DNA from: an uncultured Pelagibacteraceae bacterium
GTDB lineage: Bacteria > Pseudomonadota > Alphaproteobacteria > Pelagibacterales > Pelagibacteraceae
Reading direction: 5' to 3'
DNA: 64,000 nucleotides
Assembly (NCBI GenBank): GCA_902556905.1
Contig: CACDYK010000002.1
Coordinates: forward strand, 1-64,000
Shown: positions 25,333 through 40,888 of the stretch, in pieces
How the letters are laid out: every line of letters begins with the position of its first letter
Position numbering within the stretch: position 1 is the stretch's first letter
Translations under genes and position numbers: made by a program
Notes under the pieces: generated by a model
Told to the model about the DNA's origin: nothing
Databases searched by the model: none
The model's input: only the letters and a program-made list of their open reading frames with translations

Positions 25333-26352
25333 ATGAGTATTATTAGAAACTTATCGAGAACAATATTAGCTTTTTTTGTTCTACTATCTCTTATAATTTC
25401 ATCAACATCAGTTTTTGCAGAAGAAATAGTAGGACGACTTTCAGTGCACTGGAGTCCTAAACACCATAGTGCAAAACATGCACAAATTTTTGCAGATGAA
25501 GTTAACAAAAGAGCAAAAGGTAAATTAAAAATTGAGGTGTACCCTTCAAAACAACTCTTTGGAATTAGAGATGTTATGGGAGCAGTAACATCAGGTGCTG
25601 TTGAGCTTGGAGGAATTGTTGGAGTAGTTAGTTTTCCACCAATAAATAAAAACTTTAATGTAGCTTCATTTCCAGGATTATTTAATTCTTGGGAACAGCA
25701 AAGAGGTTTTTTTCAAAATTCACCTAAAGGAAAAGAAATTTGGGGTGAACTAACAAAAAAAACTAATTCTACATTAATTATGTACAATCCTGTTGGACCA
25801 GTAATGTCAATTTCAAGTGCTCGTGAGTTAACAGGAATTGATGCCATGAAAGGTTTGAAAGCAAGAAGGTTGCTTAAGAGTGAAGAACCTATGTGGGATG
25901 CTCTAGGGGCTAACCGTGTTTCATTAAAAACTGGAGAAGTATATAACGCTTTACAATCTGGAATGATTGATACAATTAATAGTCCCCCAGGAAGTATAAA
26001 AGCATATAGTTGGTGGGAGTTTTTGAAATACGCTCAAAAACCATATCAATATTATGCTGACGCTTATATAATGGCAAATTCTACTTGGTTTAATGGTTTA
26101 TCATCTGATTTACAAAAAATAATAATGGATGTTGGTAAGGAAGTGGGAACTCTTTCAACAGATAGAATTATGGATCATGGTGAAACTGTTCTTAAAGAAT
26201 TTCAAGACAGAGGTGGTGTAGTGACTACACTCTCAGGATCTGAAAAAGCTAAATTTGATAAGCTTATGAAAGAAAAAGTTATGCCCGCCATGGCTAAAAT
26301 GATTGACTCTGATGCTTTACAGGCAGCACAAGAGTTTGCAAAAAATAATTAG
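25333..26352 (+). CDS. dctP: TRAP transporter substrate-binding protein (DctP family)
   Basis: The 339-residue protein has a signal peptide of about 29 residues (SSTSVFA/E) and a DctP-type domain, with the usual HAQIFADEVNKRAKGKLKIEVYP-like N-terminal helix-strand. The conserved arginine that binds a substrate carboxylate is present in a KGLKARRLLK segment near residues 175-184, although two arginines are adjacent. A GGGGAGA ribosome-binding site precedes the start. With the small and large membrane subunits downstream it forms a sodium-driven importer, probably for an organic acid; the ligand is not identifiable by eye. Confidence 0.88.
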   Translation: MSIIRNLSRTILAFFVLLSLIISSTSVFAEEIVGRLSVHWSPKHHSAKHAQIFADEVNKRAKGKLKIEVYPSKQLFGIRDVMGAVTSGAVELGGIVGVVSFPPINKNFNVASFPGLFNSWEQQRGFFQNSPKGKEIWGELTKKTNSTLIMYNPVGPVMSISSARELTGIDAMKGLKARRLLKSEEPMWDALGANRVSLKTGEVYNALQSGMIDTINSPPGSIKAYSWWEFLKYAQKPYQYYADAYIMANSTWFNGLSSDLQKIIMDVGKEVGTLSTDRIMDHGETVLKEFQDRGGVVTTLSGSEKAKFDKLMKEKVMPAMAKMIDSDALQAAQEFAKNN

Positions 26353-26376
26353 AATAAGTAAAGCTTAGTCTAAATA

Positions 26377-26868
26377 ATGAAAACATTGCGAGCAGTTAAT
26401 AATATACTGGCTTCTGTATCAATGATGCTCGCAATGTTAATAATTTTTATAATGGTTGCTGCTCTATTTTTAAGTGCAAGCACAAGATTTATAACTGGCA
26501 CTGGATTTGCTTGGTTTGTAGAATTGCCACCCGTTCTAGTTAGTTGGTTAGTTTTTCCATTACTTGGACCTTTATTAAAGAAAGGCCAACATATAAAAGT
26601 AGATTTTTTAACACCTATATTATCAAAAAAATTTAATATAATTTTATTTCTATTAGTCAACTTGGTAGCTTTTATTTCAGCATGTGTTTTTTTTAAAGCA
26701 GGTTTGGATGCAACAATAATGTATTATAATTTAGGACAAGTAATGGAGATAGAAATTAGCATTCCACTATGGTGGATGTTTTTAGCTTTCCCAGTAGGTT
26801 TTTTAATGTTGGCGCTTACATCTTTAGAATTATTGATTGATAATATTTTTAACTTAATAAATAGATAA
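26377..26868 (+). CDS. dctQ: TRAP transporter small membrane subunit (DctQ family)
   Basis: The 163-residue protein has four predicted helices at about 10-35, 48-65, 90-110 and 128-150, the arrangement of DctQ subunits. The GFAWFVELPPVLVSWLVF segment is the family's most recognisable block. It lies between DctP and DctM in the standard order. The stop is followed by 11 bases before the large-subunit start. No hairpin comparable to those in the ABC operons separates it from dctP. Confidence 0.88.
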   Translation: MKTLRAVNNILASVSMMLAMLIIFIMVAALFLSASTRFITGTGFAWFVELPPVLVSWLVFPLLGPLLKKGQHIKVDFLTPILSKKFNIILFLLVNLVAFISACVFFKAGLDATIMYYNLGQVMEIEISIPLWWMFLAFPVGFLMLALTSLELLIDNIFNLINR

Positions 26869-26879
26869 ATTATTAGTAA

Positions 26880-28145
26880 ATGTTTTCTTTAGCTTTTATT
26901 TTATCATTAGTAACATTAATTATTTCTGTTCCAATTTTTTTAGTATTTGGGCTAGGCAGCTCTATAGCAGCGATTGGTGGGCTTAATCTTCCATGGTCAG
27001 TTTTAATTCAAGTGTCTTTTGGTGCTTTAACTAAACATGTTCTTATCGCAGTTCCATTATTTATATTTAGTGGAATGGCTATGTTAAAAGGAGGTGCTGC
27101 ATTAAGATTAGTAAAATTTGCAACAACATTGGTAGGACACTGGCCTGGAGGTTTGGGTGTCGCGATGGTTCTTGCAATGGGTTTCTTTGCAGCATTTTGT
27201 GGATCAATTCTTGCAGCAATCACTGCTATTGGGACTATCATGATGCCAAAAATGGTAGAACAGGGTTATCCTACTCCATTTGTTGTGGTTCTTGCTGCTT
27301 CAGCAGCTTTACTTGAAGCATTAATTCCACCTTCGAATGCAGCTATTTTGTTTAGTGCTCTTACATATGTACCTGTGTCTAAGACTTTTGCGGCAGGGGT
27401 AATTCCTGGTGTGATACTTCTTGTCTTAATGATTCTCTTAGTTCTCTTTAAATGTAGACATATTAAAACTGATAAAAAAGCATCATTTAAAGAAAGAATA
27501 AACTCTTTTATTTCTGCGTTACCAGCTTTAATTACTCCTATAATAATCTTAGGAGGTATATATGCTGGTTTTTTAACACCTTCAGAGTCAGCAGCAGTTG
27601 CAGGTGTTTATGCTGTAGCTATAGGTTTTTTAATTTATAGAGAATTGACTTTGTCTTCATTATTAAGTTGTCTAAAAGAAACAGCAATAATTACAGCAGT
27701 AATATTTTCAATTATTGCAACAGCGACTTTTTTAAGTGTTGTTCTAACATATACACAAGCTCCACAAAAAATTATTACTTTTTTCACTGAAATGGGTATC
27801 AGCGTAAATTTATTTTGGGTAATGTTAGGTATAATTTGTTTAATACTTGGAACTTTTATCGAAATAGTTCCTGTATTTTATTTAACAGTCCCAATATTTG
27901 CTGCAATCACATTGTCTTTCAATCAAAGTCTACTACATTTATATGTAGTGTTCGTTGCTTTTGCAGGAATTGGAATGATAACACCACCAGTCTGTGTTGG
28001 AATATATACAGCAGCAAGTGTAATAAAAGAAAATCCAGCTAATGCTTTTAAAGAAGTTCCTTTATTTACAATTGTAGGAATTATTTACGGAATTTTAATG
28101 ATTTTATTCCCAATATTTTCTACTTGGCTTCCAAGTCTTATTTAG
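26880..28145 (+). CDS. dctM: TRAP transporter large membrane subunit (DctM family)
   Basis: The 421-residue protein is a DctM/SiaM-type secondary transporter with about 12 helices. Family blocks include FCGSILAAITAIGTIMMP near residues 103-120, IPPSNAAILFSAL near 149-161 and GIGMITPPVCVGIY near 362-375; these helical-hairpin regions line the substrate and sodium sites. It is the final gene of the TRAP operon. Its stop is nine bases from the stop of the convergent aminotransferase gene, leaving no space for a terminator. Confidence 0.9.
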   Translation: MFSLAFILSLVTLIISVPIFLVFGLGSSIAAIGGLNLPWSVLIQVSFGALTKHVLIAVPLFIFSGMAMLKGGAALRLVKFATTLVGHWPGGLGVAMVLAMGFFAAFCGSILAAITAIGTIMMPKMVEQGYPTPFVVVLAASAALLEALIPPSNAAILFSALTYVPVSKTFAAGVIPGVILLVLMILLVLFKCRHIKTDKKASFKERINSFISALPALITPIIILGGIYAGFLTPSESAAVAGVYAVAIGFLIYRELTLSSLLSCLKETAIITAVIFSIIATATFLSVVLTYTQAPQKIITFFTEMGISVNLFWVMLGIICLILGTFIEIVPVFYLTVPIFAAITLSFNQSLLHLYVVFVAFAGIGMITPPVCVGIYTAASVIKENPANAFKEVPLFTIVGIIYGILMILFPIFSTWLPSLI

Positions 28146-28154
28146 CTTTATAAT

Positions 28155-29036
28155 TTAACTATTTTTACCAACAAGAACTTCATAGCTAGTAGATAAATCT
28201 TTAATTAAATCACATACTTCAAAGTTGTTATCAGCAATAATTCCTACAGGAGTTATTTCTGCAGCAGTACCTGTAATAAAACAACCTTTAAAACTAGATA
28301 GTTCATCAGGAGATATCTTTCTCTCGTGAATCTTAATATTTTTTGACCTTGCAAGATCTATGACTGTTTTTCTGGTTATACCATCTAGAAAAGAGTCTGG
28401 TATTGGAGTGTGCAATTCATTTTTATCATCTTTAAAAAAAATGTTAGCACTTGTGGCCTCTGCTATATTGCCTTCATGATCTAACATTAAAGAATCTGTA
28501 TATCCATCTTTTTCTGCTTGATGTTTTGAAAGTGTACAAATCATGTATAAACCTGCTGCTTTGCTTTCCCAGGGTGATGAATTTTGAGGTGGTCTTTGCC
28601 ACTTAGAAATATTCAACTTAATACCTTTTAATTTTAAACTTGGATCAAAGTATGTTGGCCATTCCCATATTGCTATAGCCACATTTATCTTTGTATTTTG
28701 TGCTGAAACCCCCATCATTTCACTGCCTCTCCAAACAAATGGGCGTATATACCCATTTTGAATATTTTGATCAGAGACAAGTTTTTTTGTAGCTTCAATA
28801 ATCTCGTTATATGAATAAGGAATTTTCATATCTAAAATTTTTGCAGAATTGAAAAGTCTATCTGTGTGTTCTTCTAATTTAAAAATTTTTGTATTGTATA
28901 CTCTTAAGCCTTCAAAAACTAAGCTAGCATAATGCATCCCATGACTGATTATATGAACCCTAGCATCTTGCCACTCACATAATTCGTTATTAAACCAAAT
29001 TTTTCCAGATCTTTTATCAAAAGGTAATTGATGCAT
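28155..29036 (-). CDS. ilvE: Branched-chain/D-amino-acid-type aminotransferase (class IV, IlvE-like)
   Basis: The 293-residue PLP enzyme is fold-type IV. An N-terminal ISHGMHYASLVFEGLRVY block, arginine in YIRPFVWRG, and catalytic lysine in ESKAAGLYM near residue 158 follow the branched-chain aminotransferase pattern, and a TSANIFF segment near 196 is the usual phosphate-site loop. It could provide branched-chain amino acids, or act as a catabolic transaminase in the minus-strand operon that starts at 35282. It is the last gene of that operon, eight bases after the thiolase gene. Confidence 0.85.
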   Translation of the reverse strand: MHQLPFDKRSGKIWFNNELCEWQDARVHIISHGMHYASLVFEGLRVYNTKIFKLEEHTDRLFNSAKILDMKIPYSYNEIIEATKKLVSDQNIQNGYIRPFVWRGSEMMGVSAQNTKINVAIAIWEWPTYFDPSLKLKGIKLNISKWQRPPQNSSPWESKAAGLYMICTLSKHQAEKDGYTDSLMLDHEGNIAEATSANIFFKDDKNELHTPIPDSFLDGITRKTVIDLARSKNIKIHERKISPDELSSFKGCFITGTAAEITPVGIIADNNFEVCDLIKDLSTSYEVLVGKNS

Positions 29037-29044
29037 ATGAAAAT

Positions 29045-30169
29045 TTATTCTACAGATTCAATAATTGTTGCAATGCCCATTCCAAGGCCAATACATTGGG
29101 TAGCTAATGCGTATTTTTTATTTTCTCTTCTTAATAATTGAGCTGCTTTTCCAGTAATTCTTGCACCTGTTGCCCCAAGAGGATGACCTAGGGCTAAGGC
29201 ACCGCCATCTATGTTAACTTTGTTTTGATTGATTTTTAAATCTTTTATACATGCTAATGATTGAGAAGCAAAAGCTTCATTTAATTCTACAATATCAATA
29301 TCATCTATTGTTAGTTTAGCTCTCTCTAATGCTTTTTGCGAAGCTCCAATTGGCCCTAACCCCATTGTATCAGGCTTACATCCTTGAACAGCAGTAGACA
29401 CAATTCTTGCTAAAATTTCTAAGTTATTATCTTTAGCATATTGTTCTTCACAAATTAAAGTAGCAGCAGCACCATCTGTAAGAGGCGATGATGTTGCGGC
29501 AGTTACAGTCCCATTTTGATCAAATGCTAATTTTAAACTATTCAATTTATCTTGATTGCTATTAGGTCTTATATTGCTGTCTTGAGAACAATTTCCGATA
29601 GAGACAATTTCATTATTAAAATTACCTTTTGATTGAGCTTCAAATGCTTTCTTATGACTTGATATTGCAAATTCCTGTTGTTCAGTTCTTGATATAGAAT
29701 ATTGTTTAGCTACATTTTCTGCAGTAGTACCCATTGTAAAATAAACATTTGGATTTTCAGTTTCAGTATATGGATATGGCATAGGGTCAAAACCAGTAGT
29801 TACTCTAGTCATACTTTCAACGCCACCACAAATAAAAACTTTTCCAGACCCCATTGCTATTTTTCCTGCTGCAATATGAATACCTTCCATTGATGATCCA
29901 CACCATCTATCTACTGTCATTCCAGAAGTCTTGATATCCATGTTGGTTAAAAAAGTTACTAATTTACCAATATTAAAACACTGTTCTCCAGTTTGAAATG
30001 CACATCCAATTACAACGTCCTCTATATCGCTTTTATTAATTTTAGTTTTTGAAACAAGATTGTTTATAACTTCAGCAAGCAGATTAACTGGCTTGACATC
30101 AATTAATTCTCCTTTTCTCGCCATTGTAAATGGTGATCTTGAATAACCTGCTATAACTGCTTTAAACAT
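29045..30169 (-). CDS. Acetyl-CoA acyltransferase (thiolase)
   Basis: The 374-residue thiolase has the nucleophilic cysteine in VDRWCGSSMEG near residue 90, the NEAFASQ motif near 297, the catalytic histidine in GHPLGATGAR near 330 and the second cysteine in TQCIGLGMG near 360. It would cleave a 3-ketoacyl-CoA or condense acetyl-CoA. With the FadN-like fusion at 42976 it could complete beta-oxidation, but its own operon also contains a DmdA-type demethylase and a ThDP enzyme. It is followed by the aminotransferase and preceded by the demethylase gene on the same strand. Confidence 0.92.
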   Translation of the reverse strand: MFKAVIAGYSRSPFTMARKGELIDVKPVNLLAEVINNLVSKTKINKSDIEDVVIGCAFQTGEQCFNIGKLVTFLTNMDIKTSGMTVDRWCGSSMEGIHIAAGKIAMGSGKVFICGGVESMTRVTTGFDPMPYPYTETENPNVYFTMGTTAENVAKQYSISRTEQQEFAISSHKKAFEAQSKGNFNNEIVSIGNCSQDSNIRPNSNQDKLNSLKLAFDQNGTVTAATSSPLTDGAAATLICEEQYAKDNNLEILARIVSTAVQGCKPDTMGLGPIGASQKALERAKLTIDDIDIVELNEAFASQSLACIKDLKINQNKVNIDGGALALGHPLGATGARITGKAAQLLRRENKKYALATQCIGLGMGIATIIESVE

Positions 30170-30186
30170 AAGGAATATATAGCTAT

Positions 30187-31332
30187 TTAATCTGGAAATG
30201 GCAAAGATGTTATCGTCCCATTTCTTTTCCCCCCATCAAGAGTTTGGACAAATACATTTTCTCCAACATTCCAGTATTCTTTCAAAATCATTGATAAACC
30301 AATATTTTTTTTAATTCTAGGAGAGAAAATTCCTGACGTTATCTGTCCAATTTTTTTATTATCTTTTGAGAGTACTTTTAATGGTTGTCCGGTTGCTGGA
30401 CATGGATCGCCATCAAAAATAATTCCCATCATTTTTTGTTTAATGCCTTCATTTTTGATTTTTGTTAAGGCTTGTTTTCCAATAAAATCATGTGACACAT
30501 CATCTTTACAATATTTTTCTAGATTGCACTCGAAAGGATTATTCTCTCCTGTAAAATCATTCCCATAAGACATAAGTCCACCTTCAATTCTATCAATTAG
30601 ATTAGGACAACCTGGTGAAATATTAAATTTTTTACCAGCTTCCCAAATTGTATCCCAAAGTTTTTCACCCATTTCAATTTTATCAAAATATTTTTCATGT
30701 ACTTTGAAATAAATTTCAAAACCATCTTGTTTACTGTATCCTGATCTTGCAATAACTTGTTTAGTTCCTTCAAAATCAACTACTCTAAAGTTAAAAAACT
30801 TAATTTTTTTTATTTCTTCACCAAATATAGAAACTAACAGCTCTTCTGATTTTGGTCCTTGAACTGCTAAAGGATAAACATCAGGTTCGTCAATATTTAC
30901 ATCTAAGTTTAATCCCAAAGCATAACCTTTTGCCCATAGTAAAATATCAGAGTCTGCTATTGAGATCCAAAACATATCGTCATCTAATTTAAGTAAGACT
31001 GGGTCATTTATCATTCCAGCTTTTTCATTTAGCATCGGTATATAAAAACATTTTCCAGTCTCCATAGTTTTTATCGAACGAGGAGTTAATTTTTGTATCA
31101 ACGAAGCAGCATCAGGGCCACTTATCTGTACTTGTCTTTGACAAGAGACATCCCAAATTTGAACCTCTTTACTTAAGTGCCAGTAATCCTCCTCAACTGT
31201 ATTTTTGAAACCTTTTGGTAAAAGCATGTGATTTACTACTGTAAAATCTGAGACACCATGTTCTTCCACTCTACTAGTGTAAGGAGTTCTTCTTATTCTT
31301 CTAGACATATTTAATTTTATATTTTTGGTCAT
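30187..31332 (-). CDS. dmdA: DmdA-family THF-dependent demethylase
   Basis: The 381-residue protein is of the GcvT fold and its N-terminal SRRIRRTPYTSRVEEHGV block, VQIWDVSCQRQVQI near 58-71, GMINDPV near 106-112 and CPNLIDRIEGGLMSYGND segment match DMSP demethylase (DmdA) rather than glycine-cleavage GcvT. DmdA moves a methyl group of dimethylsulfoniopropionate to tetrahydrofolate, leaving methylmercaptopropionate. In the segment RSGYSKQDGFEIY a tyrosine (Y199) stands where I recall tryptophan in characterised DmdA proteins. This may mark another DmdA clade or a different methylated substrate. It is between a thiolase and a transthyretin-like gene, without recognisable dmdBCD neighbours. Confidence 0.78.
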   Translation of the reverse strand: MTKNIKLNMSRRIRRTPYTSRVEEHGVSDFTVVNHMLLPKGFKNTVEEDYWHLSKEVQIWDVSCQRQVQISGPDAASLIQKLTPRSIKTMETGKCFYIPMLNEKAGMINDPVLLKLDDDMFWISIADSDILLWAKGYALGLNLDVNIDEPDVYPLAVQGPKSEELLVSIFGEEIKKIKFFNFRVVDFEGTKQVIARSGYSKQDGFEIYFKVHEKYFDKIEMGEKLWDTIWEAGKKFNISPGCPNLIDRIEGGLMSYGNDFTGENNPFECNLEKYCKDDVSHDFIGKQALTKIKNEGIKQKMMGIIFDGDPCPATGQPLKVLSKDNKKIGQITSGIFSPRIKKNIGLSMILKEYWNVGENVFVQTLDGGKRNGTITSLPFPD

Positions 31333-31354
31333 AAAAAATTTAATTATTTAATAA

Positions 31355-31690
31355 TTATTGAGACCACCAAATCGAATAACCGTTTGGTGATATAATTATT
31401 GGTAAGTGATATTTTTTTTTAGGATCTTCCATTCTAAATTTTATTATTATTTCAGAAATAATTTTTTTTTTAGAAAAATAATCTGCTGTTTTACAAACCA
31501 TTTCATAATCACATTCACAGTCATCATTTGAAAGTTCGAAATCTTTTAGAATTCTGCCTCCATCATCTGTTTCAGTTTCAAAAAATATCTTTTTAACACC
31601 TAGGGAATTAATTTGATTAATAATTACTCTAACTCCACTAGCATGAGTTCCGTCTACTGAGTTAAGTAAGTGTGATGATAAAGTTGCCAT
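31355..31690 (-). CDS. Transthyretin-like protein, 5-hydroxyisourate hydrolase family, atypical C-terminus
   Basis: The 111-residue protein matches the short bacterial transthyretin-like/HIU hydrolase family: an N-terminal LSSHLLNSVDGTHASGV block with H7, DDGGRI with R46, and YHLPIIISPNGYS with H95 correspond to three of the catalytic residues. The family's C-terminal Y-R-G-S tetrapeptide, needed for hydrolysis of 5-hydroxyisourate, is replaced by WWSQ. No uricase or OHCU decarboxylase gene lies nearby, so a purine role is doubtful. It is encoded between a DmdA-type demethylase and a ThDP enzyme, four bases after the latter, and may act on a different cyclic or amide substrate. Confidence 0.8.
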   Translation of the reverse strand: MATLSSHLLNSVDGTHASGVRVIINQINSLGVKKIFFETETDDGGRILKDFELSNDDCECDYEMVCKTADYFSKKKIISEIIIKFRMEDPKKKYHLPIIISPNGYSIWWSQ

Positions 31691-31694
31691 ATAT

Positions 31695-33437
31695 TTATTC
31701 TATTGAGGCCTTATCTCTTTTGTCACTAACAGCAGCAACTATTGGGCTTATAACGCCCTTTGCTTTTACGTTGATACATGCAGTTTTTCCACTCTTTATT
31801 GCCCTTTTTAATGCTGGGGCTAATTGTTCTCTTTTTGTAACTAATTCTCCATGACCTCCAAAACCTTCAAAAATTTTATGAAAAGGAATATCTCTAAAAT
31901 CAGTTGCAAAATGTTTTCCACTTTCAAATAATCTTTCTTGTTGTTGAGATATACAATCTAATCCACCATTATTATCAATTACTACTACAATAGGTTTGTT
32001 CTCTTGAAAAGCAGCCTCTATAGACAAACCTCCAGATAAAAAAGCTCCATCTCCACTTATTAAGATAACGTTTGATTCAGGGTTTATATTTTTCGCAGAA
32101 AGCGCAAATGGAACACCAACACCCAACATACTAAATGTACCAGGATGAAGAATTCCACCTATTTTTTTTCCTTTTGATCCAGCAATATTTATTGCAATTT
32201 CAGACCAGAAGTGAGTATTACCTCCGTCAATGACCAACCAATCTTTCTCACCTATAGCATCTTGTACATCCAAAGCTAATTGAAGTGGATGCATCTTACC
32301 TCCGTTGGCTTCAGCCTCTTTTGTCTCTTTACTTAAATCTTCTAATGTCTTATCTACCCATTCTTGTTTTTTTGTTCTGTTAAGATCAAACCATTCGTTA
32401 CTTAAATTCCATTTATTATTTAATTTAAGTTTATTTAATGTGTCAAAAAAAACTCCAGGATCGCATAATAAATTTATATCTGCGGCTCTATTAAGTTCTA
32501 TTTCTTCATGAGATCCATTAATACATACAAGTTTAGTTGATTTAGGAAAAAGTGGTGGGTTTCCAAAATTCATTTGATTATCCAATCTAGCTCCAACCAT
32601 CATTACCAAATCAGAGTCATGTAATGCAAATTTTGAAGGAGGGTACTGATGAATATCAGCTAAACCCATATAAGCATTAGCTTCTTCTCCAAGTAATTTT
32701 TGGTGATAAGGAATATTAAATATTGGAATTTTCAAACTATTGCCAACTTCTTCTAATTTTTTTTCAGATCCAGACCACCAAACTCCATGACCACCAATTA
32801 AAACTGGTTTTTTTGAATTACTTGCAAGTTCTAATATTTCAGACATTTGTGCTGGGTCAGGCCAAGCTTTTACAATTGTTTTTGTTTGATGTGAAAATGG
32901 TCTTTCTTCAAGTCCTGCGTCTTCAGAAAAAGATGAAAACATAATATCAACAGGCATACTTAAATGTACCGCACCAGGATATCCATTTGTTGCAATTTTA
33001 TATGCCTTATCTACAAATTCTCTAATTCTAGTTCCATCAGTTATACTTGCACTGTATTTTGTTAAAGGTGCAGCAATTGCAACATCATCAATTTCTTTAA
33101 ATCCCCCTGAGCCTTGTCTTTTTAAACTGCTTGAACCAGTTATGAATATTACAGGTGATCGTTCACCCCAAGCCTCCATCATTGATGGAACAGCATTTGC
33201 AAATCCTTCAGGACCAACAAGACAAACAGCTGGTTTTCTTGTAATTCTTGTATGTCCATCAGCTATGTGACCTGCTACTTGTTCATGAGGACAATTGATT
33301 ACTTCCATTTGGCACTCCATAAACCCCTCTAAAGCAGGATTACAAAACCCACCAGATAATGTAAAAACATGTTGAATCCCTTTGTCTTTTAATGCTCTAG
33401 CGATAAGCGATCCACCTCTAATTTTTTTTTCTGACAT
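31695..33437 (-). CDS. Thiamine-diphosphate-dependent enzyme (acetolactate synthase-like family)
   Basis: The 580-residue protein has all three domains of the POX/AHAS family: the PYR domain with the cofactor-activating glutamate in CPHEQVAGH (E52), a central NAD/FAD-type domain, and a PP domain with the ThDP motif starting GDGAFLSGG and ending in IDNNGG. This family includes acetolactate synthase, benzoylformate decarboxylase, oxalyl-CoA decarboxylase and 2-hydroxyacyl-CoA lyase, and it is too diverse to name the substrate. The next gene upstream is an FMN alpha-hydroxyacid dehydrogenase, so one possible route is oxidation of a 2-hydroxy acid to a 2-oxo acid and then decarboxylation here. 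That is inference from context. Confidence 0.85.
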   Translation of the reverse strand: MSEKKIRGGSLIARALKDKGIQHVFTLSGGFCNPALEGFMECQMEVINCPHEQVAGHIADGHTRITRKPAVCLVGPEGFANAVPSMMEAWGERSPVIFITGSSSLKRQGSGGFKEIDDVAIAAPLTKYSASITDGTRIREFVDKAYKIATNGYPGAVHLSMPVDIMFSSFSEDAGLEERPFSHQTKTIVKAWPDPAQMSEILELASNSKKPVLIGGHGVWWSGSEKKLEEVGNSLKIPIFNIPYHQKLLGEEANAYMGLADIHQYPPSKFALHDSDLVMMVGARLDNQMNFGNPPLFPKSTKLVCINGSHEEIELNRAADINLLCDPGVFFDTLNKLKLNNKWNLSNEWFDLNRTKKQEWVDKTLEDLSKETKEAEANGGKMHPLQLALDVQDAIGEKDWLVIDGGNTHFWSEIAINIAGSKGKKIGGILHPGTFSMLGVGVPFALSAKNINPESNVILISGDGAFLSGGLSIEAAFQENKPIVVVIDNNGGLDCISQQQERLFESGKHFATDFRDIPFHKIFEGFGGHGELVTKREQLAPALKRAIKSGKTACINVKAKGVISPIVAAVSDKRDKASIE

Positions 33438-33441
33438 TTTT

Positions 33442-34596
33442 TTAGTATTTCATATTTTCAATAAATTTTTTAGCAATTATTTCTGACGTCACATCATTTA
33501 TATCAGTTAAACCAACTAAACCTAGTGCTGTACTTAACTCGTCTTTAATAATATCTAAAATTTTTCTTAAACCTTTTTCACCATCAGCTCCAATACCATA
33601 CATTAGTGGTCTTCCAAGCATTACGTAATTTGCACCTAGTGCTAAAGCTCTTATAATATCGCTTCCACCTCTAACACCGCTATCAAACAGCAGAGGAAAT
33701 TCTTTACCTAATTCATTTCTTATCAATGGTAATGCTTCGATTGATGCCGTAGCACTATCTAATTGTCTTCCACCATGGTTAGATACTTGTATAGCATCAA
33801 CTCCTTCATCCTTTATTTTTAGAGCATCCTCTGGTGACATTACTCCTTTAATTATTAATTTTCCTTTCCAAGCATCCCTTACTCTTTTGAGAGTTCCCCA
33901 ATCCGTAGCACCTCTACTATCACTTCTTATAAATTTAACTCCACTTTTAGATGTTTCGTAGTTCATTGGTTTTGGAATGCCACCTAGTAAAGTAGATAAA
34001 GACCAATGAGGATGAGTTACAAAATCAAACATTTGTTTAGGACCTATTTTAAAAGGGACTGTAAAACCATTTTTGTTATCCTTAGCTCTTCTAAATTGGA
34101 TTGGAACATCCACAGTTAGTATTGCCACTTTGTAACCAGTTTGTTCTGCTCTTTTTAAAATTTCCATTACAAAATTTTCCTTAGAATTATATAATTGTAT
34201 CCAAGATCTACCTTCAGATAATTCATGCATTTTTTCTAAAGATGTTGAAGAAGCCATAGAAACAGATGTAGGCACATTATTTACAATACTTTCTTTAGCT
34301 AACATTTTATCTGCACCTGTCCAGGTTAAGTTACACATTCCCATTGGTGAAAAACCAAATGGTTGATCAAATTCAATATCTAAAAATTTCTTTTTTAAAT
34401 TTCTATTTTCAACATTTCGTAAAACTTTTGGTTCAAGTCTAATTTGATCTAAGGCTGTACTGTTAATTTCACAAAGTTTTTCATCACCTGAAGCGCCATC
34501 AACAAAATCAAACATTAATTTTGGGATCCTTTTCTTTGCTAAATTTCTAGCATCATCTAAGCTATGAATTTTTTTACTTGCGGTTATATTCTTCAT
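33442..34596 (-). CDS. FMN-dependent alpha-hydroxyacid dehydrogenase/oxidase (LldD family)
   Basis: The 384-residue protein is a complete alpha/beta barrel of the glycolate oxidase/L-lactate dehydrogenase family. The active-site histidine-arginine motif is SNHGGRQLDS near residues 273-282, with FMN-binding FDSGVRGGSDIIRAL near 308-322 and an N-terminal FDFVDGASGDE block near 30-40. The enzyme would oxidise an L-2-hydroxy acid to a 2-oxo acid in the cytoplasm or at the membrane. It overlaps the peptidase gene upstream by four bases and precedes the ThDP enzyme by four bases, so it is firmly within this operon. Confidence 0.88.
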   Translation of the reverse strand: MKNITASKKIHSLDDARNLAKKRIPKLMFDFVDGASGDEKLCEINSTALDQIRLEPKVLRNVENRNLKKKFLDIEFDQPFGFSPMGMCNLTWTGADKMLAKESIVNNVPTSVSMASSTSLEKMHELSEGRSWIQLYNSKENFVMEILKRAEQTGYKVAILTVDVPIQFRRAKDNKNGFTVPFKIGPKQMFDFVTHPHWSLSTLLGGIPKPMNYETSKSGVKFIRSDSRGATDWGTLKRVRDAWKGKLIIKGVMSPEDALKIKDEGVDAIQVSNHGGRQLDSATASIEALPLIRNELGKEFPLLFDSGVRGGSDIIRALALGANYVMLGRPLMYGIGADGEKGLRKILDIIKDELSTALGLVGLTDINDVTSEIIAKKFIENMKY

Positions 34597-35282
34597 TTAT
34601 TCTTTATATATTCTTTCAGATTAATCTTTTTATTTTTATCTAAAAAATAAGCTGTGTGATTTTTTCTTGAAGAATAAACTTCAGTTGGTTTCCCGTCAAC
34701 AAAAACTACTGCCACACCATCATCTATTGCAATACCTTGAGGTAACTTGTTATTTTTAATATCTGACTCAAACTGATTTATTCTTTTAATGTTAGATGAA
34801 TGAGGAGTACAGCTCCCTGAAATCAAATTAATTCCTCTCAAAGGATTAAATCCTGGCCCAACAGAGTCTGATAATATCCAGTCAAACCAACATACTGCTC
34901 CAGCACTAATACCAGATAAAATAATCCCTTTTTCATAAGCAACTTTAAAGATATTTTCTAATTTATTTTTTCTCCAAATCTCTAACATAAAGACAGTATT
35001 ACCACCTCCTATGTAAACTAAGTCTTTACTCATTATCCACTCAGAAAATCCATTTATATTAGATGTTAGATTAAAATGTGATAATTCAAATTCAGTATTT
35101 TCAAACCTTTTATAAAATAAGTTTATTTTTTTTTCATCATCTTTACTAGCTGTCGCTAAAAATCCGATTTTATTATTTGTTCTTTTTAATTTATCTATGA
35201 CAAATTGATCTAAACTTAGATCTGACTGATGTGTAAAGCCACCACCACCTATAGCAATTATTTTTTTTTCTATATTGTTCAT
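34593..35282 (-). CDS. Peptidase E-like S51-family protein
   Basis: The 229-residue protein has the S51 nucleophile elbow GISAGAVCW with S126, the preceding VYIGGGNTVFML block near 89-100, and a later CTPHSSN histidine near 160. Peptidase E hydrolyses dipeptides with N-terminal aspartate, and relatives include cyanophycinase. There is no signal peptide, so it is cytosolic. It is the first gene of the minus-strand operon ending at 28155 and is divergent from the orphan binding-protein-like gene with a gap of about 55 bases. Its role in the operon is unclear. Confidence 0.82.
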   Translation of the reverse strand: MNNIEKKIIAIGGGGFTHQSDLSLDQFVIDKLKRTNNKIGFLATASKDDEKKINLFYKRFENTEFELSHFNLTSNINGFSEWIMSKDLVYIGGGNTVFMLEIWRKNKLENIFKVAYEKGIILSGISAGAVCWFDWILSDSVGPGFNPLRGINLISGSCTPHSSNIKRINQFESDIKNNKLPQGIAIDDGVAVVFVDGKPTEVYSSRKNHTAYFLDKNKKINLKEYIKNK

Positions 35283-35337: not shown

Positions 35338-36066
35338 ATGATGAAAACTATATCTAAAAAAATAGCTCCAACAGGAGAACTGCGTGTTGGTTTGAATATG
35401 AGTAATTTTTTGCTCGTTAATTCAGAAGATGCAAATGGATTACCAGATGGTGTATCTCCAGATATTGGTAAAAAACTTGCTAAAGAACTAAACTTAAATT
35501 GTAAATTAGTTCAATTTGAGAGGCCAGGATTATTAGCTGATGCAGTCGATGATGATAAATGGGATATTGGCAATATAGCTTATGAGAAGGAGAGAAGCAA
35601 AACTATAGATTTTAGCAATCCATATGTGAATATTGATGCTAATTTTATCTTTAGGAATAAGTACAACTTTAAGAGCAATGAAGAGATTAATTCTTCGGGT
35701 ATTAAGATAGCAGTAGTTGAAAGAAGTGCATATGATTTATGGTTATCAGATAATTTTAAAAACGCTGAATTAATTAAAGTAAAAACAATAGAATGCTCAC
35801 ATAAATTATTTAGAGAAGGTAGTGTAGATGTCCTAGCTGGTTTAAAACCTAAGCTTTTGAAAGAACTTGAAATAAATGATGATTTTAAAATAATATCAAA
35901 TCCATTTACCTTTATAAAACAATCAGTTGGTATTAAAAAAGGTAATCCTGAAATATTAGAGTTTTTAAATGATTTTATTTCAAAACTTATTAAAGAGGGT
36001 TATGTAGAAAGTTTATTAAAAAAACATAACGTTCAAAACAAATTAAGTATTCCTAAAATTGATTAG
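35338..36066 (+). CDS. Orphan solute-binding-protein domain (SBP_bac_3 type) without signal peptide
   Basis: The 242-residue protein matches the amino-acid ABC transporter binding-protein fold from its first residues: GELRVGLNMSNFLLV near 12-26, GVSPDIGKKLAKEL near 39-52, and a closing segment KLIKEGYVESLLKKH near the C-terminus. It has no signal peptide; an ATG-ATG start is followed directly by the domain, and no upstream in-frame extension is available. No permease or ATPase gene is adjacent. It may be a cytosolic sensor or an enzyme with this fold, as with cyclohexadienyl dehydratase. Its 3' end overlaps the GcvT-like gene by four bases. Confidence 0.75.
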   Translation: MMKTISKKIAPTGELRVGLNMSNFLLVNSEDANGLPDGVSPDIGKKLAKELNLNCKLVQFERPGLLADAVDDDKWDIGNIAYEKERSKTIDFSNPYVNIDANFIFRNKYNFKSNEEINSSGIKIAVVERSAYDLWLSDNFKNAELIKVKTIECSHKLFREGSVDVLAGLKPKLLKELEINDDFKIISNPFTFIKQSVGIKKGNPEILEFLNDFISKLIKEGYVESLLKKHNVQNKLSIPKID

Positions 36067-37286
36067 CTTTTAATTCCTGACCACGGTTCAGCCTTTGTGG
36101 GTATTTTTTTATCTATACCTCTTACTATCTCACCTTTTGGATCGTACATAGGTAATTTACAAAGTTGAGCTTTGTGAATTTTTTCATCAGTGCATTCAAC
36201 ATCAACTACTGTTTCAGGCCCTAAGTCTGACTTGTCTAATAACACAATACCAACCCCACAAACTTGGTAAGGAGACCATGTGCTTGATGTTACTTTTCCA
36301 ATACATTGATTATTTAATTTAATAGACCTTCCTTTTTTTGCTATTCCATCAACTACTCTAATGCCCCAACTTCGACATTCTTTATCTGCATTTATCAAAG
36401 CTTTTTTACCTATAAAGTTATCTTTTTCTAAATCAACAAAACGACCAAGACCTACAGAAAAGGGATTTGTTTCATTTGAAAAATCTTGTCCTGCAGATAA
36501 TAATCCAGCTTCAATTCTTCTACCCCTAAATGAAGGTGTTGCTGTAATAATCATTCCCATTTTTTTTCCTTCTTCAAGAATAAGATCACCTAATTTTTCT
36601 ATATTATTTTCAGGACGAAAATAAATTTCCCAACCAAGTTCATTTGTAAAACCAGTTCGACTAATTATTACCTTTTCACTAGCCATGGTAACTTCAACCC
36701 AATCAAAATATTTCCATGTATTTGCTATCGGTTCATCAATTAAATGGTTAAGAAGTTCCATTGATTTAGGTCCTTGAATTTGACTTACAAATACATTTGG
36801 TTCTTTAATTTCAACATCAAGTCCTTCAGAATTAGCTTTATACCATGAGAGCATGTCGCCATCTGCTTGAGCAAACCAGTAGCAATTATTATCAATTCTT
36901 AAAAGTAAACCATCAGTAATTATTCCACCATCATGGTAACAGGCAAACTGATAGGAACATCTTCCTTTTTTAACTTTTGAAATATCTCTAGGAAAAATTC
37001 TTTGTAATAATTTAAGAGCGTCTGGTCCTGAAATTTCATAAGGATGTTCTCCTGTATGTCGAAGAATAATTTCTTGTTTTGTTTTCCAGTACTGCTCATC
37101 TGGAGTAGCATTAGATAATTTTTCAGTTGTTAGTCGTCCAGCATAATGTGAATACTCTGGGTCATAAGGTAGCTCCTGATAAGTCAATGGATGTATGCTC
37201 ATAGTCCTAGCCAATTCAACAGGTCTATCGCCTTCCTCTCTTTGAGGTTTAATAGAAAACCTTATATTTCTTAAAGATTTATGCAT
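36063..37286 (-). CDS. GcvT-family aminomethyltransferase/demethylase-like protein
   Basis: The 407-residue protein has the GcvT fold, with the GPDALKLLQRIFPRDI block near 81-96, the folate-site aspartate in GGIITDGLLL near 118-127, VSQIQGPKSMELL near 163-175 and a C-terminal barrel with IGKVTSSTWSP. An N-terminal extension of about 60 residues precedes the usual start of the domain. It is unlike the DmdA-like protein at 30187 in its signature blocks. The family includes aminomethyl transferase, DMSP demethylase and vanillate/syringate-type O-demethylases, and the substrate is not clear. It is divergent from the oligopeptide-type binding-protein gene. Confidence 0.8.
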   Translation of the reverse strand: MHKSLRNIRFSIKPQREEGDRPVELARTMSIHPLTYQELPYDPEYSHYAGRLTTEKLSNATPDEQYWKTKQEIILRHTGEHPYEISGPDALKLLQRIFPRDISKVKKGRCSYQFACYHDGGIITDGLLLRIDNNCYWFAQADGDMLSWYKANSEGLDVEIKEPNVFVSQIQGPKSMELLNHLIDEPIANTWKYFDWVEVTMASEKVIISRTGFTNELGWEIYFRPENNIEKLGDLILEEGKKMGMIITATPSFRGRRIEAGLLSAGQDFSNETNPFSVGLGRFVDLEKDNFIGKKALINADKECRSWGIRVVDGIAKKGRSIKLNNQCIGKVTSSTWSPYQVCGVGIVLLDKSDLGPETVVDVECTDEKIHKAQLCKLPMYDPKGEIVRGIDKKIPTKAEPWSGIKS

Positions 37287-37443
37287 AGAATTTTTTATTA
37301 AATTAAAATTAAATTTTAATCCAGTTATATCATAAATATGAAAACCTAAAATGGGTACAACCTTTGATTGTATACTACATTAGTATTGTTCTAAATTTTG
37401 TAAGATGTTAGCCTTTCAAAAAAACAAACAGAGGAAATTAATA

Positions 37444-38931
37444 ATGAAAAACATTTTTAAATTGATATCGGTTTCTTTGGTATCTTTACTAGTATTGTTT
37501 TCATCTGCCAATGCATCAAGTGGAACTTTTAAACTTTCCCACGACCTTGGATTTGGAAAAGATACAAACCTAGACGCAATAACTAAGGGTCGATTATTTC
37601 AAGTTGTAATAATGACTCAAAATCGATTGGTAAGAAAAAATCTTAAAGGAGTTGTATCTGAAGAATTGGCTACAAAATGGTCAGCAAATGCAGACGCTAC
37701 AGAGTGGACTTTCAATCTTCGTAAAGGAGTTAAATTTCATGATGGATCAGATTTTGATGCTGAAGATGTAAAATATTCTTTAATGAGAGTTAAAGATCCA
37801 GAAATTGGCTCACCTGCAAAAAAAAGCTTAAGTGTTGTAACTGATATTGAGATAATTGACTCACATACAGTAAAAATGAAATTAAGCACTTCTTTTGCTG
37901 ACTTTCCTCTTAATTTAACTGATTATAGATTAAGAATGATACCTTCAGGATCTGGAGATACTATTGGGCAAACTGGAATTGGAACAGGACCTTTTATAGT
38001 TGAAAAATTTGATGCAGAAGGAACTACAATTTTAAAAGCTAACCCAAATTATTGGGAAGGTGCACCTGGACTTGCTGAAGTTCATGTAATAGCTATACCT
38101 GATGGAGAGGCGAGAGTACAAGCTCTATTAACTGGTCAAATTGATATGAATAGATATGTACAATTTAGCCAGAAAAAAATCTTTGATGGTAATTCTAAAT
38201 TCAAAACTGCAGTGATACCGACAGGTAACTGGAGAGGAATGGTTATGAATACTGAACGAGCTCCTTTTAATGATCCAAAAGTTAGAAAAGCTGTTCGTTT
38301 AGCTGTTGATAGACAAGAGCTAGTTGATACTGTTATGGGTGGAGAAGCAATTGTGTCATGTGATACACCTGTTTCACCAGCTGATCAATACAGACTTAAA
38401 ATGAAGTGTCCTCAAAACATCAAGAAAGCAAAAAAACTTTTAGCTGAGGCTGGATATCCTGATGGAATAGAAATGGTAATTCATGTATCTACTAAAGAAC
38501 CAACTTGGCCAACTATTGCTGAAGTAATTCAACAACAAGTTGCTAAAGCTGGAATTAAAGTTGATATTAAAATGACTCCATCAAAAAGTTACTGGAAAGA
38601 AACTTGGATGAAAAAAGATGTCGCTATGACGCGTTGGAATGAAAGATCTGCTGATAGCGTACTTCATGAAGTTTATCACAGTAGCGCAAAATGGAATGAG
38701 TCTTATTATAAAAGTTCTGACTTTGATAAAAATCTAGCAAGTGCTAGAGCTGAGTTAAACTTTAATAAGAGAAGAACAGCCTACAGAAATGCACAAAAAA
38801 CTTTATGGGAAGAATCTGGAACCATGATTCCGTACCATGTTTCTAAATTAGTAGTTACTAATTCTAGAGTAAAAAACCTTGATGAAGTTGAGGTTTTTTC
38901 AGTTCAGTGGCATAAAGTTAAAGTAGATTAA
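37444..38931 (+). CDS. Peptide/opine-type ABC substrate-binding protein (DppA/OppA family)
   Basis: This family 5 solute-binding protein is about 495 residues. I place the start at the ATG at 37444, seven bases after a GAGG ribosome-binding site and directly before the signal peptide MKNIFKLI...SSANA; an in-frame ATG at 37405 would add 13 residues with no ribosome-binding site. The body has the family blocks WTFNLRKGVKFHDGS and KANPNYWEG near residues 100 and 195. It is followed by a 14-bp hairpin, then permeases and a fused ATPase. The ligand may be a peptide or another small cation; DppA relatives vary too much to decide. Confidence 0.86.
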   Translation: MKNIFKLISVSLVSLLVLFSSANASSGTFKLSHDLGFGKDTNLDAITKGRLFQVVIMTQNRLVRKNLKGVVSEELATKWSANADATEWTFNLRKGVKFHDGSDFDAEDVKYSLMRVKDPEIGSPAKKSLSVVTDIEIIDSHTVKMKLSTSFADFPLNLTDYRLRMIPSGSGDTIGQTGIGTGPFIVEKFDAEGTTILKANPNYWEGAPGLAEVHVIAIPDGEARVQALLTGQIDMNRYVQFSQKKIFDGNSKFKTAVIPTGNWRGMVMNTERAPFNDPKVRKAVRLAVDRQELVDTVMGGEAIVSCDTPVSPADQYRLKMKCPQNIKKAKKLLAEAGYPDGIEMVIHVSTKEPTWPTIAEVIQQQVAKAGIKVDIKMTPSKSYWKETWMKKDVAMTRWNERSADSVLHEVYHSSAKWNESYYKSSDFDKNLASARAELNFNKRRTAYRNAQKTLWEESGTMIPYHVSKLVVTNSRVKNLDEVEVFSVQWHKVKVD

Positions 38932-38944
38932 TATATAAAATAAT

Positions 38945-38978
38945 ATTTTACAGGCCTAAAAATAGGCCTGTAAAATTT
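38945..38978 (+). terminator. Intergenic hairpin between dppA-like and dppB-like genes
   Basis: A 14-bp stem (38945-38958 with 38963-38976, core CAGGCCTA/TAGGCCTG) and a four-base loop is followed by a short T-run. It is the strongest of the four such hairpins. The permease gene starts about 50 bases later, so partial termination or 3' protection of the binding-protein message is likely. Confidence 0.85.
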
Positions 38979-39028
38979 ACTTCATTTATCAGTAATTAAT
39001 TTTTTAATTTAGGTTTATAAACTGAAAT

Positions 39029-39985
39029 ATGTTTTTTTTGATTTTTAAAAGATTTGTATTAGGTTTAATTACATTATTTATTGTATCTTTAATTACTTTT
39101 ATTGGCGTTGAAATATTACCAGGTGATGCTTGTACTTCATATCTAGAAAGAGAAGCTTTTGGTGAAGCTTTAGCTGCATGTATAAAAAGATTAGGATTAG
39201 ATGTCCCTGCTCATGAACGATATTTATCTTGGGCATTTAATGTCATTCAAGGTGATTTTGGTTATTCATTAAGTGGCCAAATGCAAATTAATGAAGTCTT
39301 GGGACCAAGAATAAAAAATTCATTGGTTCTTGCTTCAGCAGCAATAATTATTGGTATCCCATTAGCATTAATCTTAGGAATAATCACAGCTCTTTGGAGA
39401 GATAAAATGCCAGATATTATCATTTCAACAGTTGCGATATTTTCAATGACCATTCCAGAATTTATAAGTGCTACTTTACTGATCTTAATAGTAGCAATAT
39501 GGTTAGAGTGGTTACCAGGCATAGTAATTGTGCCAACAGATGTAACTTTTTTTGAATTACTTCCTAATATCATTTTACCAGTGATAGCAATTGCAATGAT
39601 AATGACTGCTCATATGGCTCGAATGGTTCGTTCAAGTGTTATCCAAGTGATGGCAAGTGATTATATTCAAATGGCAATATTAAAGGGAGTTCCTTATTGG
39701 AAAATGGTTTTCAAACATGTATTGCCAAACGCATTACTGCCAGCAATTAATGTTGTTGCTTTAACTATTGCTTGGTTATTAGGTGGGGTAGTTGTAACTG
39801 AAGTGGTATTTAATTATCCAGGACTAGGTAGATTGGTAATCGAGTCTATATCTAATAGAGATTTACCAGTCGTTCAAGCTTTAGGTATTATTCTTGCATC
39901 TATTTACGTGAGTATAAATTTTATAGCTGATTTATTAACGTTAATGTTAAACCCTAGATTAAAGACATTACAAACTAGAAAATAA
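39029..39985 (+). CDS. dppB: Peptide-type ABC transporter permease (DppB family)
   Basis: The 318-residue permease has an N-terminal helix at about 9-29, a periplasmic stretch containing two cysteines (CTSYLE and CIKRLG), then five helices. The EAA-type loop reads ILKGVPYWKMVFKHVLPNAL near 214-233, and the VVVTEVVFNYPGLGRL block near 250-265 is a DppB/OppB signature. It is first of the permease pair, following the binding-protein gene after a hairpin, and is three bases from DppC. Confidence 0.9.
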   Translation: MFFLIFKRFVLGLITLFIVSLITFIGVEILPGDACTSYLEREAFGEALAACIKRLGLDVPAHERYLSWAFNVIQGDFGYSLSGQMQINEVLGPRIKNSLVLASAAIIIGIPLALILGIITALWRDKMPDIIISTVAIFSMTIPEFISATLLILIVAIWLEWLPGIVIVPTDVTFFELLPNIILPVIAIAMIMTAHMARMVRSSVIQVMASDYIQMAILKGVPYWKMVFKHVLPNALLPAINVVALTIAWLLGGVVVTEVVFNYPGLGRLVIESISNRDLPVVQALGIILASIYVSINFIADLLTLMLNPRLKTLQTRK

Positions 39986-39988
39986 AAA

Positions 39989-40885: not shown

Positions 40886-40888
40886 AAT

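Follow-up and report, generated by a model that had tools for sequence, protein, structure and literature searches.

The window analysed here is a stretch of 64,000 nucleotides (G+C = 31%) from the draft genome (1.28 Mb, completeness 86.6%) of an uncultured Pelagibacteraceae bacterium. At 28155–35282 it carries seven minus-strand genes which, as judged by their spacing, form one operon, and this operon is part of a larger conserved module. The gene set most likely imports and degrades a methylated compound. We tentatively favour the reading that the genes serve the breakdown of a single methylated onium metabolite which contains or gives rise to a 2-hydroxy acid, a quaternary ammonium compound being more likely than a sulfonium compound. 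With slightly more reserve, we consider it possible that the module represents a new route for the catabolism of a methylated compound abundant in the surface ocean. This route would comprise three new activities: a DmdA-family demethylase that depends on folate and leaves dimethylsulfoniopropionate (DMSP) untouched, a thiamine diphosphate (ThDP) enzyme from a clade of its own and, beside it, a hydrolase with the fold of 5-hydroxyisourate hydrolase (HIUase) and a Trp-lined site. An earlier note on this DNA had proposed a catabolic route for a methylated cyclic or N-methyl compound. That interpretation is partly supported, and methyl transfer to folate from a methylated substrate is still the best reading.

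All seven open reading frames (ORFs) of the operon were confirmed, with gaps of −4, 4, 4, 22, 17 and 8 bases from the first gene to the last, and Pfam and NCBIfam bore out the family names that the earlier note had given them. Judged from sequence, each enzyme of the module is a member of a known superfamily. The genes and the shorthand used for them are:

34593–35282, minus strand: S51, PepE/cyanophycinase-like hydrolase, the operon's first gene (Peptidase_S51 PF03575, 115 bits)
33442–34596, minus strand: FMN, flavin mononucleotide (FMN)-dependent 2-hydroxyacid dehydrogenase/oxidase (FMN_dh PF01070, 377 bits)
31695–33437, minus strand: THDP, member of the 2-hydroxyacyl-CoA lyase/oxalyl-CoA decarboxylase/acetolactate synthase superfamily (PF02776/00205/02775, TPP_enzyme N/M/C, 111/93/96 bits)
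31355–31690, minus strand: TTL, transthyretin/HIUase-fold protein (Transthyretin PF00576, 66 bits)
30187–31332, minus strand: DMDA, DmdA-like member of the GcvT methyltransferase family and paralog of the true DmdA in this genome (GCV_T, 144 bits)
29045–30169, minus strand: THIO, thiolase with catalytic motifs (PF00108/PF02803, Thiolase N/C, 196/155 bits; TIGR01930, 410 bits)
28155–29036, minus strand: BCAT, branched-chain-type aminotransferase (Aminotran_4 PF01063, 177 bits; NF005726, 464 bits against a cut-off of 396)

Conservation of the gene module

A search with THDP yielded 340 loci, which may include distant relatives, and the best 80 of them are referred to as the named loci. Gene presence was recounted by tblastn in these 80 and in 18, 4, 3 and 1 loci of the families f110 (probably SAR116), f82, f24 and f142, respectively. 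Spacing was counted over the 122 of 123 examined loci that had a THDP ORF, some genomes being counted twice (e.g., as L036 and L056). The core order FMN-THDP-TTL-DMDA was common to SAR11 and four other alphaproteobacterial families, with order and spacing kept in f1, f142, f110, f82 (one genome) and f24. The conserved synteny that the earlier note had named as a check holds in these families. Among the matches listed, the named records closest to the THDP gene came from Pelagibacteraceae/Pelagibacterales (SAR11) genomes and 'uncultured Alphaproteobacteria'. Neighbours lay at most 200 bases apart in 110/110 loci for FMN-THDP, 120/120 for THDP-TTL and 113/114 for TTL-DMDA; further outward, the counts were 52/52 for DMDA-THIO, 22/22 for THIO-BCAT and 46/57 for S51-FMN. 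A TTL search over 150 relatives revealed 23 close copies in other genomes (54–97% identity) and a separate distant set (25–32%). Counting the window, 24 loci carried the close form, and in all of them THDP, TTL and DMDA adjoined.

The edges of the module varied. Twenty longer SAR11 stretches followed the order DMD2-S51-FMN-THDP-TTL-DMDA-THIO as far as each extended, DMD2 being a second methyltransferase gene described below; exceptions were an inserted SBP3 gene (SBP_bac_3 fold) in two stretches and a split FMN in L042, and BCAT adjoined in 2 of the 20. Among the 80 named loci, THDP and TTL were present in all, FMN and DMDA in 79 each, DMD2 in 73, the thiolase in 33, S51 in 32 (31 with both) and BCAT in 20. 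In 40 of these loci DMDA was followed by OsmC and an enoyl-CoA hydratase (ECH) together, and a homocysteine S-methyltransferase (HMT) occurred in 39. S51 and the thiolase were present in SAR11-type loci, to which the thiolase was confined; loci of an 'Alphaproteobacteria' group read (HMT)-DMD2-FMN-THDP-TTL-DMDA-OsmC-ECH, as in the f142 genome (L192). The 18 f110 loci, two of them on short contigs, held THDP, TTL and DMDA in 18 each, FMN in 17, S51 in 13, an MTTB-family methyltransferase (MTTB) in 12, LysR in 11, Opp genes in 10, genes of a tripartite ATP-independent periplasmic (TRAP) transporter in 3, Ldh_2, in the position behind DMDA, in 3 and DMD2 in none. All three f24 loci showed OppABCD-FMN-THDP-TTL-DMDA plus S51 and LysR, with neither MTTB nor DMD2, and the four f82 loci comprised one four-gene core with LysR and TRAP and three THDP-TTL pairs alone. 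At the tblastn thresholds used, neither BCAT nor the thiolase was detected in the 18 f110, 4 f82, 3 f24 and 1 f142 loci.

What stays constant is the combination of a 2-hydroxyacid oxidase, a ThDP enzyme, TTL and a DmdA-like methyltransferase; further methyltransferases (DMD2, MTTB and HMT), the amide hydrolase and the finishing enzymes vary. The seven-gene set of the earlier note is a real operon, but DMD2 belongs to the module too in SAR11 and the aminotransferase adjoins in 20/80 named loci only. BCAT is a local, lineage-limited addition, of which a 68% identical copy lies elsewhere in the same genome (L002). Transamination and thiolysis, which had been counted as steps of the pathway, are not part of the core on these counts. 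The module was patchy in its distribution. TTL of operon type was found in 67/397 genomes of the order (own genome included; hand count) and, in a class sample of 385, in the own genome and five others. THDP occurred in 22/61 f110 genomes, in 4/14 genomes in the order of G816 and, in a phylum sample of 398, in the own genome and one other only.

Several loci deviated in detail. L079 has a second ThDP-like ORF (80% identical) beyond DMD2, perhaps a duplication. TTL is broken into two overlapping pieces in genome G222 (C2:3081–3411), and L057 lacks an intact TTL ORF, with two pieces detected by tblastn; decay or sequencing error is possible in both cases. The TTL of L222 was not picked as an ORF and was detected by tblastn; in this locus and in L227, desaturase-like and sugar-isomerase-like genes (named by eye from the L222 sequences) adjoin DMDA. 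Neighbours resembling 5-oxoprolinase and N-formylglutamate amidohydrolase, also named by eye, appeared once each (L226 and L217, respectively) and were not used. Asparaginase-like genes (273 bits, below the cut-off of 314) lie beside THDP-TTL in L196 and L230 but not in L231; the two carriers are near relatives whose copies share 96% identity, so that they do not count as independent evidence.

A DmdA paralog and further methyltransferases

Among solved structures DMDA is nearest to the DmdA of P. ubique (PDB 3tfh, 47% identity), and it passed the NCBIfam model NF009133 with 519 bits (cut-off 410), while the LigM and DesA models gave 47 and 50 bits only. For residue counts, we used ortholog sets cleared of identical copies and of ORFs that fell short of 33–45% identity or 80% coverage. 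Trp197 of 3tfh was Tyr and Tyr32 was Val in 111/111 DMDA orthologs. Both 3tfh residues were kept in 29/29 canonical DmdA proteins of relatives, and the lone operon-type locus in that batch had Tyr and Val. The available text of PMC7487153 gives W171 as the Trp key for DMSP and E178 and Y180 as folate residues. We read W171 as Trp197 of 3tfh because E178 and Y180 then map to E204 and Y206; S99 falls one off, and the offset is our own placement.

A true DmdA is encoded elsewhere in the same genome (L242, 4522–5631 on contig C12; also L245). It is 81% identical to P. ubique DmdA, has Trp197 and can serve as a control for the paralog. In L242 hydrolase-like genes lie in front of it, together with those for acyl-CoA dehydrogenase and CoA ligase, the same kinds that accompany dmdA in HTCC1062 according to the accessible part of PMC3160333. 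Within the window operon, Pfam and NCBIfam revealed no linked CoA ligase or acyl-CoA dehydrogenase (DmdBC) and no linked uraD, xanthine dehydrogenase or allantoinase. The earlier observation that DMSP and purine genes do not accompany the operon is thus borne out, and both sets occur elsewhere in the genome. In 61 relatives 40 proteins scored above the NF009133 cut-off, 11 of them operon-type by place. Ten of these 11 carriers also had a canonical DmdA; the eleventh, G017, is a 67% complete draft. All 36 members of the DMDA alignment matched the model as well. Since NF009133 accepts the operon paralog, dmdA surveys with such models may overcount DMSP demethylation: dmdA is a marker for counting this process in the sea, and G017 would count as DmdA-positive solely through its operon paralog. 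Four aminomethyltransferases are reported for HTCC1062, and also in HTCC1002 and HTCC7211, in the accessible part of PMC3160333. The module may be missing from these strains, because none of the aminomethyltransferases named there is clearly of operon type. Two further DmdA/GcvT-like paralogs of the source genome (L004 on C20 and C2:99944–101014) scored 386 and 235 bits with NF009133, so that, with DMD2 counted, the genome holds at least five such members.

The second methyltransferase gene is:

36063–37286, minus strand: DMD2, second GcvT/DmdA-like methyltransferase (PF01571/PF08669)

DMD2 is 28% identical to 3tfh and has Phe at position 197 in 80/80 sequences. Although a plus-strand gene (35338–36066) separates it from the operon in the window, DMD2 is part of the module in SAR11 as well as in the f142-like group. 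It lay within 200 bases of S51 in 33/45 loci with both genes and of FMN in 40/40 loci without S51, and it was present in 73/80 named loci but in 0/18 f110 and 0/3 f24 loci. MTTB (PF06253), found in 12/18 f110 loci and free of in-frame stops in the two scanned, occurred solely where DMD2 was absent among the loci counted. HMT (PF02574 in L080) lay beside DMD2 in the f142-like group. By their profile matches, DMD2, MTTB and HMT are all members of methyl-transfer families. In L222 and L227, MTTB runs in the opposite direction and a less similar Opp transporter (~28%) is found; these clusters may serve a related substrate. The corrinoid protein MtgC is present in SAR116 and in no Pelagibacteraceae, as far as the available text of PMC12478193 goes. 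If f110 is SAR116, the simplest reading of the MTTB/DMD2 pattern together with this distribution would be a B12-dependent and a folate-only route to one demethylation, which would favour a quaternary amine.

Were the substrate instead a 2-hydroxy acid with a sulfonium group, for example 4-dimethylsulfonio-2-hydroxybutyrate (DMSHB), DMDA would yield 4-methylthio-2-hydroxybutyrate and FMN would oxidize it to 4-methylthio-2-oxobutyrate, from which BCAT would form methionine unless THDP decarboxylated it. The nearest solved structure to DMDA is indeed a sulfonium demethylase, FMN and the aminotransferase suit the compound well, and methionine from DMSHB would be useful because SAR11 lacks MetE and MetH (PMC12478193, available text). 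We nevertheless regard DMSHB as an unlikely substrate: TTL, the thiolase, S51 and the second methyltransferase would be left unexplained, the aminotransferase is present in 20/80 named and 0/26 other loci, the MTTB-family proteins of relatives suggest nitrogen, and the literature matches listed include no paper on DMSHB catabolism. That DMDA is a plain DMSP demethylase in a variant operon would agree with its automatic name and its score above the NF009133 cut-off. This is very unlikely in view of the genome's 81% identical true DmdA, preceded by CoA ligase and acyl-CoA dehydrogenase genes that the operon lacks, the replacement of Trp197 by Tyr in every ortholog, and the canonical DmdA of 10/11 carriers (the eleventh being the 67% complete draft). 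LigM and DesA, of the same GcvT-like superfamily, act on aryl methyl ethers, and their models score on both DMDA and DMD2; the methyl donor might thus be an O-methyl or other non-onium compound. We rate this a shade lower still, as DMDA is much closer to DmdA than to either enzyme (519 bits versus 47 and 50) and none of the module's named genes was recognised as an aromatic-ring gene.

The transthyretin-fold protein and the other operon enzymes

The AlphaFold2 model of TTL (confidence score pLDDT 93) found its best fold matches among HIUases (TM-score ~0.8), and His7, Arg46 and His95 were each kept in 106/106 sequences. Even so, TTL failed the HIUase model TIGR02962 (65.9 against a cut-off of 87.45), with which the genome's own hiuH product scores 123.2. 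In the alignment with the S. dublin transthyretin-like protein (TLP; 2gpz), equivalents of the HIUase residues His6 and His95 are present in TTL, but Tyr108 aligns with Trp108. This position was Trp in 106/106 TTL and Tyr in 28/28 HIUase-type comparison sequences; position 109 was Trp in 99 of 106, and the C-terminus reads WWS(x), not YRGS. The S. dublin TLP mutants H6A, H95A and Y108F lose rapid 5-hydroxyisourate hydrolysis, according to the available text of PMC4324301. A tree of 25 THDP-linked and 28 HIUase-type proteins was split into these groups by one branch with support 100/100, some end branches being long. The two Trp residues could hold a quaternary ammonium cation. In its accessible part, PMC11698098 reports that SAR11 and SAR116 harbour a second homolog of HIUase, for which the authors conclude 'a different function'. 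The TTL of the window fits this second homolog, to which an operon context is now added.

If TTL were a variant HIUase in a pathway for methylated purines or hydantoins, its fold and the conserved His, Arg and His would be accounted for, yet this reading deserves very little credence. The essential HIUase Tyr is Trp in all TTL sequences, TIGR02962 is failed, and the genome has its own purine operon (L241) with a hiuH ending in YRGS and uraD, both confirmed by NCBIfam (other neighbours were named from sequence). Moreover, just 5/67 TTL carriers had an HIUase-type match (hand count in drafts, so that some may be missed), and the authors of PMC11698098, in its accessible part, assign the second homolog another function. 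The 'cyclic' substrate of the earlier note had the HIUase fold as its sole basis.

The nearest PDB chains of FMN were L-lactate oxidase and (S)-mandelate dehydrogenase. Y136, D163, R170, H274 and R277 were kept in at least 97% of 101 sequences; we take H274, R277, D163 and Y136 to be the counterparts of H254, R257, D157 and Y129 of glycolate oxidase. The position that is presumably Tyr24 in glycolate oxidase is, by eye, Phe31 in FMN, and this Phe is conserved. THDP keeps Glu52 and the GDG...N motif. Its nearest PDB entries, 8vzc and 8vzf, matched over nearly the whole length, while its best NCBIfam match reached 262 bits (cut-off 587) and curated 2-hydroxyacyl-CoA lyase/oxalyl-CoA decarboxylase models gave 239, 206 and 195 against cut-offs of 600, 557 and 739. 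THDP was 67–75% identical to the f110, f82 and f24 proteins. In a tblastn search of plasmids, the best 15 of 1430 matches were ~28% identical and all 1430 records below 60%. THDP apparently forms a clade of its own. Catalytic residues are conserved in FMN, THDP, the thiolase (Cys90, His329 in GHP and Cys359, in 49 sequences) and S51 (Ser126 and His161). The S51 model (pLDDT 74, weak over 126–160) had its best folds in PepE/cyanophycinase, and a PDB sequence search at E 0.001 gave no match; as the model is moderate, we make no residue argument beyond the fold. The ECH of L080 was nearest to ECHDC3-like chains. A DmdD role for it gained no support, since DmdD, which we take to be PDB 4izc, was not among the best 60 of 69 matches.

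Proposed route and comparison with known systems

The operon is flanked by two candidate importers and a solute-binding-fold gene:

25333–28145, plus strand: TRAP transporter, candidate importer (25333–26352, 26377–26868, 26880–28145; PF03480, TIGR00786)
35338–36066, plus strand: SBP3, SBP_bac_3-fold protein of 242 aa (PF00497)
37405–42913, plus strand: Opp/Dpp-type ABC transporter, candidate importer (37405–38931, 39029–39985, 39989–40885, 40889–42913; binding protein PF00496)

TRAP homologs lay beside the cluster in L193, L225 and L233 (f110) and L232 (f82), with P and M subunits 62–78% and Q 44–51% identical. Opp homologs (50–64% identical) did so in 10/18 f110 loci and in 3/3 f24 loci, immediately upstream of FMN in the latter family. 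Searches with the binding proteins gave no substrate name, the matches being to sialic acid and C4-dicarboxylate, and to AgaA, nickel and peptide proteins. SBP3, in 11/80 named and 1/18 f110 loci, shows no signal peptide by eye and may be a cytosolic enzyme or sensor, not part of a transporter; a 53% identical homolog lies beside Opp genes in L217. At 1310–3138, the window also contains BKACE-like and carnitine-dehydrogenase-like genes together, both under the NCBIfam cut-offs, a hint at carnitine use.

On the onium reading, the TRAP or Opp transporter would bring in the substrate. DMDA and, in SAR11, DMD2 would pass one or two methyl groups to tetrahydrofolate without oxidation, with the MTTB-family protein in DMD2's role in many f110 relatives. 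The FMN enzyme would convert a 2-hydroxy acid to the 2-oxo acid, and THDP would decarboxylate or cleave the latter. TTL might act in the same group of steps as THDP, hydrolysing an intermediate that is cyclic or activated, and S51 might split an amide bond at entry or exit. The thiolase in SAR11, or elsewhere the enoyl-CoA hydratase or Ldh_2 proteins, would feed the carbon into the central pathways. The earlier note's linear sequence of steps is a guess. Several points weigh against the onium reading. Three f82 carriers hold the THDP-TTL pair only, and the swap of MTTB for DMD2 is one of position only. A second methyltransferase is not needed everywhere, because neither gene is present in L232, in 3/3 f24 loci or in 6/18 f110 loci, two of the six being on short contigs. 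LigM and DesA use aryl methyl ethers, so the methyl group need not sit on an onium centre, and one simple scheme does not account for the thiolase and the aminotransferase.

The homarine (N-methylpicolinate) operon described in 2026, which reportedly has a similar host range, likewise concerns a methylated marine compound, a pyridinium. We give an identity of the two operons hardly any weight: N-methylglutamate dehydrogenase (Mgd) takes part in homarine catabolism according to the available text of PMC13390433, so that the N-methyl group would go late and by oxidation, no mgd gene is among the cluster's named genes, and hydroxyacid oxidation and ThDP cleavage would have no obvious place. Clustering by drift of neighbours with unrelated jobs in a small genome would fit the variable edges (aminotransferase, SBP3, TRAP, thiolase, S51 and DMD2 are not constant) and is scarcely credible for a four-gene core whose order and close spacing persist across families with genomes of ~1 to 4.6 Mb.

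Our searches of open-licence papers returned no title or abstract opening on this gene cluster, and no assigned function was found there for the module, the TTL clade or the putative THDP clade. The module points to an unassigned compound and offers a short list of enzymes for assays.

Compared with known systems, FMN-THDP resembles MdlB/MdlC, the pair of (S)-mandelate dehydrogenase and benzoylformate decarboxylase that converts a hydroxy acid via the oxo acid to an aldehyde, in that an FMN-dependent 2-hydroxyacid dehydrogenase adjoins a ThDP enzyme. It differs in that the ThDP enzyme of the module comes closest to 2-hydroxyacyl-CoA lyase/oxalyl-CoA decarboxylase and that the methyltransferases and TTL have no counterpart there. 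THDP itself has its best PDB sequence matches in that group (8vzc, 8vzf), but carries GGFKE in place of GAFQE and scores far under the curated NCBIfam cut-offs. TTL shares with HIUase (TIGR02962; 2gpz) the fold, both catalytic His and Arg46, whereas Tyr108 is replaced by Trp and YRGS by WWS(x), the clade is separate, one loop is 6 residues shorter in SAR11 forms than in the SAR11 HIUase, and no purine genes lie beside TTL in the window. The MTTB of f110 recalls the MtgB glycine betaine system in family and in its aerobic marine hosts, and MtgB takes part in the demethylation of a quaternary amine (PMC12478193, available text); unlike that system, MTTB sits inside another operon in f110 and not in SAR11. 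DMDA, finally, is like DmdA (3tfh, NF009133) in its GcvT-like family, in Glu204 and Tyr206 and in the N-terminal NHMLLP segment, and unlike it in having Tyr for Trp197 and Val for Tyr32, in its different operon and in usually co-occurring with a true DmdA (10/11 carriers).

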